A stretch of 35,962 nt of DNA from an uncultured Ectothiorhodospiraceae bacterium (GTDB lineage Bacteria; Pseudomonadota; Gammaproteobacteria; Nitrococcales; Halorhodospiraceae): positions 1 through 35,962 of the forward strand of contig CAJXLI010000009.1 in NCBI GenBank assembly GCA_913055575.1, given 5' to 3'. A model generated the notes under the pieces. The model did not search any database, had not been told where the DNA came from, and was given only the letters and a program-made list of their open reading frames with translations. Positions 31,894 to 35,962 of the stretch are shown in pieces (the stretch's first letter is position 1; every line of letters begins with the position of its first letter). The position numbers were made by a program, and so were the translations under genes.

Positions 31894-33374
31894 CATCCCC
31901 TTACACACATCTCAGTTGCCCTGAGCCTGCTTGGCGTACTTGAATCCGTCGGCGAAGTCCATGACACGCAGCAGCCCCCGCCAGATCGTCTTGACGCCGG
32001 GCTCGCCGTCGCCCTTGCGCCCGAGAAAGCCTCCGAGCCCGGCGATCAGGCGTAGGACGTCATTGAGTCTGGGTGGCGAGTCCGGGACTGGCTTCTTGGC
32101 CAGCAGATAGGCGGCCTGCCACTCCTCGGGCTCGAGCATCAGATCGGCCTGGAGGTCCGGCACTTGGCGGCCGAGGCGCATGAGCCGATCGATGCGCCAG
32201 CTGATGATCAGGAACAGCACCAGGGCGCGCTCCAGGCGCTCGATAGGGCCCAGCTGCAGCGCCTCGACCTGGCAGGCCTGCTTGAACACGCCGAAGAGCA
32301 TCTCGATCTCCCAGCGGGCCCGATACCACTCGATCAGCTCTGCCGCCTGCTCCAGGGTCTCGACAGGGCGGTTGGTCAGCAGGCGCCACTCGATCGGCTC
32401 GACCCCCTGCGGCGCACCGATCTCGGTCGCGATCAGGCACGTCGCTTCGACCTCGCCGCCCTGGCGGTCCGAGAGCGCCACGCGCTGGGCATGGATCTGC
32501 TGATGGACTGGGCGCGCCCGGCGCCGCCGTCCCGCCGGGAGCGTGAAATGCAGCTCGCCCAGCGCAGGCGTCTCGCGAACCGAACTCCACAGCTTCTGGC
32601 CGTTGGGCAACGCCCGGTTATGCTGGGCCCGCAGCAGCCAGTCCACGGGGGTGCCCCGATCCCGGGCACCGATCATGAGATCGAGGATGTCGGCCTCTCG
32701 ATCGGCGAGGTAGACCATCTGCGTCTCGGGCAAGTCGGGGGCCAGCTCCGCGAGACGCGCGTAGCCTTCCTTCCAGCGCTCGCTCTCCTTGACCCCGGGG
32801 CGGCTACCATCCGCCTCTTTCGGCTCCCGGGCCCACATCCAGGCATCGAGCACGCCCAGCGGCTCACGCTCCGGCGTCACCGCATAGGTGGGGTGGACAT
32901 ACATCCCACGCTGAGCCTCGTAGCTCAGCGGCCCCAGGCCCTCGCTCTGCCGGCCGTTGAAGTTCAGCTCGGTGGTGTCCTGCAGGCACAGCACCACCGG
33001 ATGGGTCGCCATGCGCTGCTGCGTGCGCTGGCGGTGCGGCTCGAGCAGATCCTGCTCATCGTAGCCCTCGCCGCGGAGCAGGCGGTAGGCGGCATGGGTC
33101 TCCGACCAGCCCTCGCAGGCCTGCGGGATGCTCGCCGTCGGGTTATCACCAAGGCGCTCGACGAGCTGGATCAACCGCCGATTCCGGCGCTGATCGCCCA
33201 GGTCCACCTCTTCGAGCTCAAGCTCTGCCCAGCTCATCGCCGCCTCCACGTCCCATGGCCAAGAAAGGCGCCATGTTGCCATAAGCGGGCGCGACAGCGG
33301 CCTCATCAGCCCGGGAAAAGCAGCAGCTCAGCGGTCAGTCACTGGCTACTGGCCGAGATGTGTGTAAGGGGATG
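31894..33374 (-). mobile_element. complete IS4-family (IS50/Tn5-like) insertion sequence
   Basis: The element is 1,481 bases. It is bounded by perfect 20-base terminal inverted repeats, 31894-31913 (begins CATCCCCTTACA) and 33355-33374, and flanked by the 9-base duplication CCTCGCCCG. It encodes one DDE transposase on the minus strand whose stop codon lies partly inside the left repeat. Size, duplication length and the transposase YREK motif all point to the IS50 subgroup of IS4. Perfect ends and duplication suggest a recent or still active copy. Confidence 0.93.
31912..33237 (-). CDS. IS4-family (IS50/Tn5-like) transposase
   Basis: The product is 441 residues from the ATG complementary to 33235-33237, chosen because GGAGG stands 5 bases upstream; in-frame ATGs up to 33306 are possible. 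The N-terminus (SWAELELEEVDLGDQRRNRRLIQLVERLGDNPTASIPQACEGWSETHAAYRLL) is the Tn5-type DNA-binding region. Catalytic residues are D87 (LQDTTELNF), D179 (YLADREADI) and E312 within the exact Y-2-R-3-E-6-K signature Y305/R308/E312/K319. Tn5 transposase has 476 residues. It cuts and pastes the element using the inverted repeats at each end. No frameshift or internal stop is present, so it should be functional. Confidence 0.95.
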   Translation of the reverse strand: MSWAELELEEVDLGDQRRNRRLIQLVERLGDNPTASIPQACEGWSETHAAYRLLRGEGYDEQDLLEPHRQRTQQRMATHPVVLCLQDTTELNFNGRQSEGLGPLSYEAQRGMYVHPTYAVTPEREPLGVLDAWMWAREPKEADGSRPGVKESERWKEGYARLAELAPDLPETQMVYLADREADILDLMIGARDRGTPVDWLLRAQHNRALPNGQKLWSSVRETPALGELHFTLPAGRRRRARPVHQQIHAQRVALSDRQGGEVEATCLIATEIGAPQGVEPIEWRLLTNRPVETLEQAAELIEWYRARWEIEMLFGVFKQACQVEALQLGPIERLERALVLFLIISWRIDRLMRLGRQVPDLQADLMLEPEEWQAAYLLAKKPVPDSPPRLNDVLRLIAGLGGFLGRKGDGEPGVKTIWRGLLRVMDFADGFKYAKQAQGN

Positions 33375-34125: not shown

Positions 34126-34332
34126 GACCCAGCTGCGCGGTGCGCCGGGCTCGCCGCTCTATTTGAGAAAATCTCCAAAACGACGGGATTTGTCGCGATG
34201 ATCTCTTACGGTATTGATCTGGGAGCCTGGACGTAGTATCCCTCAGGTCTCCCCCCGATCACGGTAGCCTGAAATCCGGCGCTATCGAAATCTGTGTGGG
34301 TGACGACCTCATCAGGTCAGGTCGCGGCGGCC
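34126..34332. other. intergenic stretch without recognised gene
   Basis: No reading frame of interest is seen in these 207 bases. A short inverted repeat GACCT/AGGTC lies at about 34301-34314. The DNA replaces the downstream part of the repA stub, so a rearrangement breakpoint lies at or near 34,333-34,350. Confidence 0.4.
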
Positions 34333-34440
34333 CTACATGTTGTGCGATCCGGCCATGTCGTCACGGGGAGCCGCGTCGAGCACATCCGCGATGAATAGGT
34401 CCCCCTGGGGGTGTCGGACGGGACGCAGATGATTGGTCAT
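34333..34440 (-). pseudogene. N-terminal stub of RPA-type plasmid replication initiator
   Basis: A 35-codon frame reads MTNHLRPVRHPQGDLFIADV, then LDAAPRDDMAGSHNM and a stop. The DLFxxDxxDAAPxDDMA segment is the conserved start of replication initiator protein A (RPA family), which normally continues with SMEHPxFxL and runs for 280 or more residues. Here the likeness ends after DDMA, where the DNA changes. It is therefore a truncated repA, pointing to plasmid origin of this segment. It follows the tiny membrane gene by 9 bases on the same strand. Confidence 0.65.
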
Positions 34441-34449
34441 CACGCCGAC

Positions 34450-34557
34450 TCAGCTGCGCCGCTTGCGCTCGCGGTCCTGGTGCTCCCAGCGCAGGACCAG
34501 CCACGCTGACAGCCCCATGCCCACGGCGATCACGGCCATCACGATATAGGGGGTCAT
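34450..34557 (-). CDS. 35-residue single-span membrane protein
   Basis: The product is MTPYIVMAVIAVGMGLSAWL followed by VLRWEHQDRERKRRS. One membrane helix (residues 3-23) is followed by a strongly basic cytoplasmic tail, so an N-out orientation is likely. Its ATG overlaps the stop of the preceding gene (ATGA), and AGGAGGAAGAG stands just upstream inside that gene, so it is translationally coupled. It is not assigned to a family. Its size and layout resemble small accessory proteins found beside plasmid replication genes, but this is impression only. Confidence 0.65.
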   Translation of the reverse strand: MTPYIVMAVIAVGMGLSAWLVLRWEHQDRERKRRS

Positions 34558-34742
34558 GGCTCTTCCTCCTCGCGTCGATGGATAGCGTAGCCAACTAGGT
34601 TCGCCGCTATGCCAAGTACAGCGGCGGCGATAGTCGCTGCGCCGGGCACGCGGTCCTCCAGGAATCCGCCCACCAGGCCTGCCACGATAGCGGCGACCCC
34701 GACCCGGCGGAAGTCTTCGGCAATGGCCTCGCCCGGCCTCAT
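34554..34742 (-). CDS. 62-residue two-span membrane protein
   Basis: The product has 62 residues: an amphipathic start (MRPGEAIAEDFRRVG), a first membrane helix (about residues 15-28, VAAIVAGLVGGFL), a short DRVPG turn, a second helix (about 34-52, AATIAAAVLGIAANLVGYA) and a charged tail (IHRREEEEP). Its ATG overlaps the stop of the 48-residue gene before it and follows AGGAGG. Its own stop overlaps the next ATG. The family is not recognised. The tight coupling to a second tiny membrane protein suggests they act together at the inner membrane. Confidence 0.7.
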   Translation of the reverse strand: MRPGEAIAEDFRRVGVAAIVAGLVGGFLEDRVPGAATIAAAVLGIAANLVGYAIHRREEEEP

Positions 34743-34885
34743 ACAGCCTCCTGCTGGGGGCTGCGCTGTCTAGCATCCAACTCCCACCGGGCCACGCCGA
34801 AACCCTGGAGCCAAGCCGACAATGTATCCAGGCTCTTCCAGGTCCGCCGGTGGTGGCGCTGGGAGGCCACCACTTTCTCTTTCAT
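34739..34885 (-). CDS. 48-residue basic protein, first gene of plasmid-like micro-operon
   Basis: The product begins MKEKVVASQRHHRRTWKSLD and continues TLSAWLQGFGVARWELDARQRSPQQEAV. It is basic at the N-terminus with a WKSLDTLSAWLQ helix and a GVARWELDAR strand, a compact soluble layout. It starts at the ATG complementary to 34883-34885 after AGGGG, and its stop overlaps the start of the 62-residue membrane protein gene. Function is unknown. The frame stays open upstream (RHPIAQQG), so the real gene could be longer and cut by the adjoining transposase remnant. Confidence 0.5.
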   Translation of the reverse strand: MKEKVVASQRHHRRTWKSLDTLSAWLQGFGVARWELDARQRSPQQEAV

Positions 34886-34895
34886 CCCCTGTTGT

Positions 34896-34979
34896 GCGAT
34901 AGGGTGACGCCGGCAGATGGCTGATCTCGCCGCAGACCCGGTAGCTGACGGTGATCAGATTGCGCGTGGTGTGAAAGCC
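34896..34979 (-). pseudogene. possible C-terminal fragment of ISL3-type transposase
   Basis: The minus-strand frame reads GFHTTRNLITVSYRVCGEIS and HLPASPYR, resembling the C-terminal end of ISL3-family transposases (RGF/RGY...NFIxxxYxxxGxLxHLP). It lies 32 bases beyond the N-terminal ISL3 fragment but in another frame, so the central catalytic part of the gene, about 300 codons, seems to have been deleted. Based on recalled pattern only. Confidence 0.4.
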
Positions 34980-35011
34980 TCGGGGCGGTTCACCTGGTGC
35001 GCTGACAGGTG

Positions 35012-35185
35012 TCATGGACGCGGTGGTCCCTCGGCGCCGCAGGCCGGGCAGGCGAGGCGGCTGCCGCTGGCGAAGGTGATATCGAAGTCGATGCACTTGG
35101 CCTCGGCATCGAAGCGGATATCGCTGACTTCCCAGGGCGCGCTCAGGCCCAGCGCGGCGGTGAACAGGGCGTGGTCCGTACTCAT
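35012..35185 (-). pseudogene. N-terminal fragment of ISL3-family transposase
   Basis: A 57-residue frame begins MSTDHALFTAALGLSAPWEV and holds DIRFDAEAKCIDFDITFASGSRLACPACGAEG. This is the start of ISL3-family transposases, including the first Cys pair (CPAC) of their N-terminal zinc finger. The rest of the zinc finger, the helix-turn-helix and the DDE domain are missing; the frame ends in PPRP and a stop. The ATG at 35183-35185 (complement) follows CGAGGAGACGCCTCG, a plausible ribosome site. The 35186-35308 stretch upstream holds nothing else recognised. Confidence 0.65.
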
Positions 35186-35308
35186 CGAGGCGTCTCCTCG
35201 GCAGGTCAAGCTCGCCCCAACATAGGGGGTCCAGGCGCCAGCTCGCTACCCCCCGCGCAACCGTCTGCCACCCACACGGATCGCGAAAGGGCCACGAGGA
35301 CTGAAACA

Positions 35309-35392
35309 ATGGAAGAGGGGAGCGGGAACGGCGAGGTCGCCATCTACCAAACCGCGCCGCAGTGCTCCGCCTATAGCCGCACAGCGGCTTAG
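35309..35392 (+). pseudogene. N-terminal stub of RhuM-family (virulence/Fic-associated) gene
   Basis: The frame MEEGSGNGEVAIYQTAPQCS runs 27 codons to a stop. The NGEVxxYQT segment matches the conserved start of RhuM-family proteins, which normally continue (E-D-G-x-x-x-I-E-V-R...WLxQxQMAELF) for 300 residues. The likeness ends just before the first hairpin of the IS200/IS605-type element, so the gene was probably cut by that insertion. The ribosome site is CGAGGA, 13 bases upstream. Confidence 0.45.
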
Positions 35393-35427
35393 GGGGTGGT
35401 GAAGCGGCGCATGGCGCGCAGCGCCAT
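35375..35427. repeat. two hairpins at one end of the IS200/IS605-type element
   Basis: AGCCGC-ACA-GCGGCT (35375-35389) and ATGGCGC-GCA-GCGCCAT (35411-35427) are perfect stems with 3-base loops. They lie just past the tnpA stop. IS200/IS605 elements have no inverted terminal repeats; instead, subterminal imperfect palindromes are bound as single-stranded hairpins by the Y1 transposase. One or both of these are the likely end structure. Confidence 0.6.
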
Positions 35428-35843
35428 CACTCCGGCGTTTCCTGTTGTTCGATGTACTGTTTCAGTACTGAAAGCGGCGCACCGCCGACGGTGATGATGC
35501 AGTAGCTGCGAGACCAGAACACCGGCTTGCGCCAGTAGTAGCGTTTCAGGTGCTCCCCGTACTCCTTGCGGATCAGGCGGGAGGTTACGGTCTTGAGATT
35601 GTTCACGAACGCGGAGGGTGCCGTGCGCGGCGTCAGCTCCAAGAGCAGATGCACATGATCCGGCTCACCGTTGAACTCCAGCACCTCCCCCTCCCACTTC
35701 TCGGTCGTCGCCCGAGCGATCGCCTCCAGCCGGAGAAGCATCGGTTTCGTGATGCACTTCCGGCGGTACTTGGTTACGAGAACCAAATGGTACTGGAGCC
35801 GATATGTGCAGTGATAGAGGCGTTTTAGAGGTTGCGTATCCAT
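35427..35843 (-). CDS. tnpA: IS200/IS605 family transposase TnpA (Y1 HUH)
   Basis: The product is 138 residues, the usual size of TnpA, which moves the element as single-stranded DNA. The HUH motif is H63-V-H65 (PDHVHLLLEL) and the nucleophile is most likely Y130 in LKQYIEQQ. RLQYHLVLVTKYRRKCI at the start and YYWRKPVFWSRSYCIITVGG are family hallmarks. The ATG complementary to 35841-35843 is preferred over an earlier in-frame ATG at 35885, which would overlap tnpB. It is divergent from tnpB, as in IS605-type elements, with 22 bases between the two starts. Intact. Confidence 0.95.
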   Translation of the reverse strand: MDTQPLKRLYHCTYRLQYHLVLVTKYRRKCITKPMLLRLEAIARATTEKWEGEVLEFNGEPDHVHLLLELTPRTAPSAFVNNLKTVTSRLIRKEYGEHLKRYYWRKPVFWSRSYCIITVGGAPLSVLKQYIEQQETPE

Positions 35844-35865
35844 AACAACCAAGCATACTGGTACT

Positions 35866-35962
35866 ATGGTCCAGCGCAAGGTCAACTATCGGCTTTACCC
35901 CACAGCGGCCCAGCTTTCCGCCCTGGAGCACCAGCGCTGGGTCCACTGCCTGCTGTGGAACG
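35866..35962 (+). CDS. tnpB: TnpB (OrfB) of the IS605-type element, 5' part only
   Basis: The frame begins MVQRKVNYRLYPTAAQLSAL and continues EHQRWVHCLLWN to the window end, 32 codons. The KxxYRLYPTxxQ start is that of TnpB, the RNA-guided DNA nuclease (relative of Cas12) that helps IS200/IS605 elements persist. The RuvC-like domain and zinc finger lie outside the window. If the element is complete, its omega RNA would come from the 3' part of tnpB, also outside. Confidence 0.85.
   Translation, partial: MVQRKVNYRLYPTAAQLSALEHQRWVHCLLWN

Follow-up and report, generated by a model that had tools for sequence, protein, structure and literature searches.

The two inner genes of a small plasmid fragment, lodged in a transposon remnant, were found to form an intact copy of a mobile module of two genes that occurs in scattered Proteobacteria. 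The module consists of a gene for a two-span membrane protein (gene A) and, directly downstream, one for a single-span membrane protein with a basic C-terminus (gene B). The copy in the window (the whole stretch of 35,962 nucleotides that was analyzed) is a stranded one, a mere pointer that led to the pair family. As an overall reading, a plasmid relic carrying a portable two-gene membrane complex, with stability or competition of mobile elements as its likeliest role, is given a probability of about one half.

A plasmid fragment in an ISL3-type transposon remnant

A fragment with the order ParC-like gene tail, 62-aa gene, 35-aa gene and repA start has gone into an ISL3-type transposon remnant (Table 1), whose terminal inverted repeats were located at window positions 35293 and 34278. 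Elsewhere in the genome, a sister copy (G000:C43:1109-1512) is 86-97% identical to the remnant in three blocks and lacks 34349-34889; it gives a partial match, below the cut-off, to the NCBIfam model transpos_ISL3 (NF033550). Eight further genomes of the genus were searched, and seven of them had related remnant sequence. At the junction, the empty site was read as single-copy ATCGCACAACA in this sister copy and in genomes G006 and G007, while in G002, G004 and G005 both flanking query segments were adjacent, i.e. without the insert. As the sister and related sites are empty, the insert is the derived state. In the window it is bracketed by two perfect copies of an 11-mer (plus-strand TGTTGTGCGAT), so that it resembles an insertion that duplicated 11 bp of its target, yet without terminal inverted repeats. 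The likeness to ISL3 family transposases lies in the remnant and its terminal inverted repeats, whereas the window element differs in being non-autonomous, internally deleted and loaded with a plasmid insert. Other mobile-element genes in the window are an apparently intact Tn5-type transposase of 464 aa (31912-33306) and, at 35427-35962, an IS200-type TnpA (Y1_Tnp, E 5e-41) divergent from an apparent TnpB gene start that runs off the contig end.

Table 1. Features of the insert and of the surrounding transposon remnant in the window.
Feature	Position	Strand	Evidence or remark
ISL3-type transposon remnant holding the insert	34278..35293	-	ends GGCCCTTTCGCGATCCGTGTGGGTGGC and GGCGCTATCGAAATCTGTGTGGGTGAC; sister copy, related copies
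Plasmid DNA insert, 541 bp	34349..34889	-	missing from sister copies
11-bp direct repeat TGTTGTGCGAT, one insert end	34338..34348		single copy in empty sites
11-bp direct repeat TGTTGTGCGAT, other insert end	34890..34900		single copy in empty sites
First 30 codons of RPA-type repA, MTNHLRPVRHPQGDLFIADVLDAAPRDDMA	34351..34440	-	cut by insert end
35-aa single-span membrane protein, basic C-terminus (gene B)	34450..34557	-	intact; partner ORF in relatives, topology
62-aa two-span membrane protein (gene A of the conserved pair)	34554..34742	-	intact; profile relatives, AlphaFold2 hairpin
48-aa ORF (ParC-like gene tail)	34739..34885	-	5' end lost at insert junction
ISL3 transposase N-terminal remnant	35012..35185	-	ORF list, sister-copy comparison

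On sequence grounds, the 48-aa ORF is the 5'-truncated C-terminal half of a ParC-family plasmid partition-associated gene, and not the complete gene for which it had been taken. It aligns with positions 37-79 of the 80 in NF041544, the ParC family known from Xanthomonas and Comamonas plasmids (E 1e-4, 21.9 bits against a cut-off of 95), and differs from that family in lacking the N-terminal half, in scoring below the cut-off and in having no ParA gene nearby; with no full-length match over the curated cut-off, it is classed as a ParC-like gene fragment. No par genes (parA/parB) were recognized among the ORFs near the insert. Plasmid homologs of the ORF are 86-104 aa long, apart from two cases that are longer fusion proteins. 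In a Salmonella plasmid, a ParC-like domain forms a fusion protein with an antitoxin, and a Klebsiella plasmid has a comparable arrangement; in L027:3884-4324 and L133:2884-3324, a ParC-like (NF041544) domain is joined to a PaaA2/RelB-type antitoxin, with a RelE toxin encoded directly downstream, the family scan covering L027 only. ParC-like proteins look toxin-antitoxin-linked.

At the other end, the repA stub shares 70% identity over 30 residues with RepA of Acidithiobacillus ferriphilus pYL1 (E 6e-6; tblastn, best plasmid match), which confirms its plasmid origin. The likeness to the RPA-type replication initiator protein A is confined to these 30 N-terminal residues, whereas the remainder of the protein is missing; with an incomplete initiator domain and 30 codons left, the stub falls short of a complete RPA-type RepA. 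A PF04796 search of the order gave no match, and neither did the controls of the same search. Being cut at both ends, the segment as a trio of genes is a relic, i.e. a doubly truncated plasmid fragment.

The preliminary description had proposed a dedicated complex of three proteins, perhaps an undescribed system acting in plasmid maintenance, partition to the membrane or host defence. The trio was rejected as a system, as its first gene is a truncated ParC-like one and scans around the other module loci detected no ParC-like ORF; partition to the membrane found no support either. What survives of the undescribed system is a translationally coupled, unnamed membrane pair made up of the second and third genes, and not the trio or an intact locus, as the insert is doubly truncated.

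The two genes in the window

The layout of the locus had been described correctly. The three tiny ORFs of 48, 62 and 35 aa are joined by exact ATGA overlaps at 34739-34742 (48-aa and 62-aa ORFs) and 34554-34557 (62-aa and 35-aa ORFs), and the ribosome sites claimed for both membrane genes are present as AGGAGG, 4 nt ahead of the 62-aa start and 7 nt ahead of the 35-aa start. No sigma-70-like promoter was found across 34200-35400. A two-span and a one-span membrane protein were likewise borne out, by modelling and topology prediction, respectively: the 62-aa product was modelled as a two-helix hairpin (AlphaFold2, single chain, mean pLDDT 86), while the 35-aa product has one hydrophobic span followed by six K/R residues. 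Residues 8-15 of the 62-aa protein, AEDFRRVG, fit an [ED][ED]xR[KR]-like segment found before the first span. Out of 222 window ORFs of 50 aa or more, only the 62-aa ORF itself has a small membrane ORF just downstream.

Conservation of the pair

Relatives were found by means of the 62-aa sequence or its profile alone, and the downstream partner was inspected afterwards. With the window sequence alone, the first relatives were retrieved at E 4e-7; the match of the window to the family profile (E 2e-17) is not independent, since the window sequence is among the 17 profile rows. Alignment A4, which contains a consensus row and rows with altered residues, served as a search guide, and no claim is based on it. 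Weak profile matches within long ORFs (G354, G310 and G267) were discarded as chance before the partner search. In a gammaproteobacterial sample, 18 out of 369 genomes matched at E 0.01, or about 16 when matches inside long ORFs are left aside, and in a second sample the gene A profile was found in only one other genome of 349.

A gene B partner, 33-45 aa long and with a single span, lies directly downstream in all of the 24 distinct gene A loci checked, while such a neighbor follows 8 of the 1073 other ORFs in the same loci. The loci are those of the window, G074, G097, G100 (a weak profile match, E 0.006), G125, G137, G141, G173, G227, G236, G237, G274 (two), G333, G371, G376, G397, G714, the Gammapro13 MAG, P. 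oryzihabitans, Pollutimonas bauzanensis, the IncA/IncC plasmids, pUM505 and a P. luteola plasmid, and they include same-genus pairs (G227 with G333; G097 with G237). The partner starts from -19 to about +30 nt from the gene A stop, a range that takes in the ATGA overlap of the window pair. In gene B proteins the side C-terminal to the span is the more basic one (22 of 22 tested), and gene A proteins have a basic N-terminal segment (18 of 18 tested). In 8 of 23 loci, gene B is followed by an intrinsic terminator within 110 nt, compared to 4.1% of random positions, which suggests that the pair often makes up a complete transcription unit.

Purifying selection acts on both genes, with dN/dS of about 0.1-0.15. 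The values for gene A are 0.09 (G333/G227) and 0.15 (G097/G237, stop codon skipped), and those for gene B are 0.11 and 0.12. The skipped stop is codon 18 of gene A in G237 (L117), an in-frame TAA, and gene B is intact there; the site is purL-linked and shared with G097. Like the relic structure of the window locus, the conserved pairing, the selection and the mobility are observed features.

Genomic context

As had been suggested for a plasmid search, the second and third genes of the window have co-occurring homologs on plasmids. With gene A of P. oryzihabitans as query, 428 plasmid records were found at the search threshold, 406 of them typed as conjugative; most of these matches are weak (E 0.01-0.05), and five records were inspected. 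On IncA/IncC plasmids the order is a Toprim primase, a small ORF, a 79-aa "permease" (WP_233904152), a 38-aa hypothetical protein (WP_000338626) and a terminator. These two proteins are the same pair, with the segment GEDLRKV in the two-span protein and about 40% identity to the P. oryzihabitans query, and the records give no function for them. The basic-tailed single-span protein begins 10 nt downstream, so that there is a gap here, whereas the window genes overlap, and the IncA/IncC pair is downstream of the primase, while that of the window is upstream of repA.

The pair likewise follows a Toprim primase in G371, and it lies directly upstream of STY4534/DUF3577 in the Gammapro13 MAG, G074 and pUM505. 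Chromosomal copies adjoin purL, rppH and lgt, pdxB, pgpA or brkB; the purL and brkB neighbors were confirmed by family scans, the others recognized from sequence. Co-occurrence with an RPA-type repA, which the preliminary description had proposed to check, was seen in the window only, its place being taken elsewhere by the Toprim primase, STY4534/DUF3577 or unrelated chromosomal genes. In G274, a gene for a CCDC90-like (PF07798) coiled coil follows the pair at a distance of about 200 bp (L110:5970-6344), and an ORF resembling it, without a Pfam match, was seen in P. oryzihabitans (L097:8509-8826).

Searches against known families

Genes A and B form a conserved pair that is unnamed in the libraries searched. 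No family in Pfam, NCBIfam, PHROGs, PADLOC or the PDB sequences consistently matches the pair, and this includes known toxin-antitoxin families (Pfam, NCBIfam, PHROGs and PADLOC). PADLOC gave no match for the window proteins and a weak one (E 0.008) for a single relative. A profile search against PDB sequences had no match, and a Foldseek search of the hairpin against the PDB returned unspecific helical matches (best E 1.4). Scattered weak Pfam matches to phage coat or holin families occurred, each in single members, and these candidates were rejected; the inovirus coat family Phage_Coat_B, for example, reached 16.0 bits against a gathering threshold of 23.5 in one of 17 family members, and no phage genes were recognized around it. 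Viral contigs yielded no relatives of the pair. The tblastn searches of plasmids and phages with the 62-aa sequence or a consensus were blank, which reflects a problem of sensitivity or low-complexity filtering, as the P. oryzihabitans query found 428 plasmids. Literature searches turned up no description of the pair.

Possible role of the pair

In the proposed mechanism, gene A encodes a helical hairpin, whose two ends are predicted to be cytoplasmic and whose first span is preceded by a conserved EDLRKIG-like segment, and gene B a single span whose basic tail is predicted to be cytoplasmic. Overlap or near-overlap of the two genes would couple their translation. Since the two are a coupled membrane pair of fixed topology, kept together everywhere, one small complex is most likely, and we infer that the proteins would form a heteromeric complex of small size in the inner membrane. 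Carriage by IncA/IncC plasmids, ICEs and solitary chromosomal operons points to a portable accessory unit rather than a subunit of a fixed machine. The likeliest specific role would then be in the stability or competition of mobile elements, as an addiction-like or protective membrane pair.

Within this reading, a stability (toxin-antitoxin-like) role is our leading specific guess, which is suggested by the toxin-antitoxin pairs found beside the ParC-like gene or rep/repA in several small plasmids and by the ParC-antitoxin fusion. CcdAB or RelBE fill the slot flanked by the ParC-like gene and rep in Aeromonas plasmids, and BrnTA is located directly upstream of repA in pYL1. Like the window pair, these are two-gene units in the corresponding slot; unlike it, they are not all-membrane pairs, and there is no sequence similarity. 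This slot argument is based on few plasmid types, and the IncA/IncC plasmids and G371 speak against it, as they hold the pair in a syntenic backbone by the primase and not in a variable slot. Also against a stability role, the pair is without a DNA-binding antitoxin-like component.

A membrane toxin-antitoxin system in the strict sense, where one small protein damages the membrane and the other neutralizes it, so that plasmids and ICEs are stabilized, is a rather doubtful explanation. The coupled two-gene layout, the mobile and solitary distribution, the use of the slot by CcdAB, RelBE and BrnTA elsewhere and a HigA-like gene adjoining the module in G173 are in keeping with it, and gene B is like type I toxins in size and layout. 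The broken gene A next to an intact gene B in G237, however, speaks against gene B as a toxin neutralized by gene A, which would leave gene A as the toxin; moreover, there is no autoregulator, and purifying selection is compatible with any function. More plausible, if still tentative, is a small membrane complex or regulator of housekeeping type, akin to CydX, AcrZ or MgrB, which would tune a host membrane protein while its carriage on mobile elements is incidental. This would agree with the small size, the uniform topology, the strongly conserved pairing and the many solitary chromosomal copies, but the chromosomal neighbors are inconsistent, and given its sparse presence, in about 16 of 369 genomes and one other of 349, the pair cannot serve a universal host protein.

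Protection of the resident element from competitors, by entry or surface exclusion or by phage defence at the membrane, seems improbable. Conjugative plasmids and ICEs do carry the pair, and its membrane location would fit, but no PADLOC model matches it and solitary chromosomal copies exist. For the IncC copy an exclusion role is unlikely, because eexC and sfx jointly account for the whole exclusion phenotype of the IncC plasmid pVCR94 (PMC11493245). A chance set of ORFs without function, lastly, has hardly any probability left. The window copy is a relic without a recognized promoter and its 48-aa ORF is a gene fragment, and this explanation still holds for the trio as a unit; for the pair it is refuted by its retention in 24 of 24 relatives and by the dN/dS of both genes.

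A portable membrane pair of stability or competition might even represent a new class, namely an all-membrane system of two proteins, a two-span hairpin and a single-span basic peptide, but we consider this unlikely. If true, IncA/IncC plasmids, ICEs and small replicons would disperse such a class, which would also sit parked at unrelated sites in proteobacterial chromosomes, and it would have gone unnoticed because the products of both genes are shorter than about 85 residues.

IncA/IncC multidrug-resistance plasmids and pUM505-type Pseudomonas elements carry the pair, with one gene annotated there as "permease" or "hypothetical", and the pair could uncover a stability, competition or envelope function on plasmids of clinical importance. 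With both partners kept in every locus checked across plasmids, ICEs and chromosomes, it lends itself to inexpensive tests by deletion and expression.

On pUM505 (NC_016138; L122:6001-6177) and other P. aeruginosa plasmids, the 58-aa gene A is called "OXA-573 beta-lactamase, 100% identity" by RGI (PLSDB). The ORF so called on pUM505 is a two-span membrane protein, and reports of OXA-573 in P. aeruginosa (e.g. PMC10338846) may rest on an RGI artefact.
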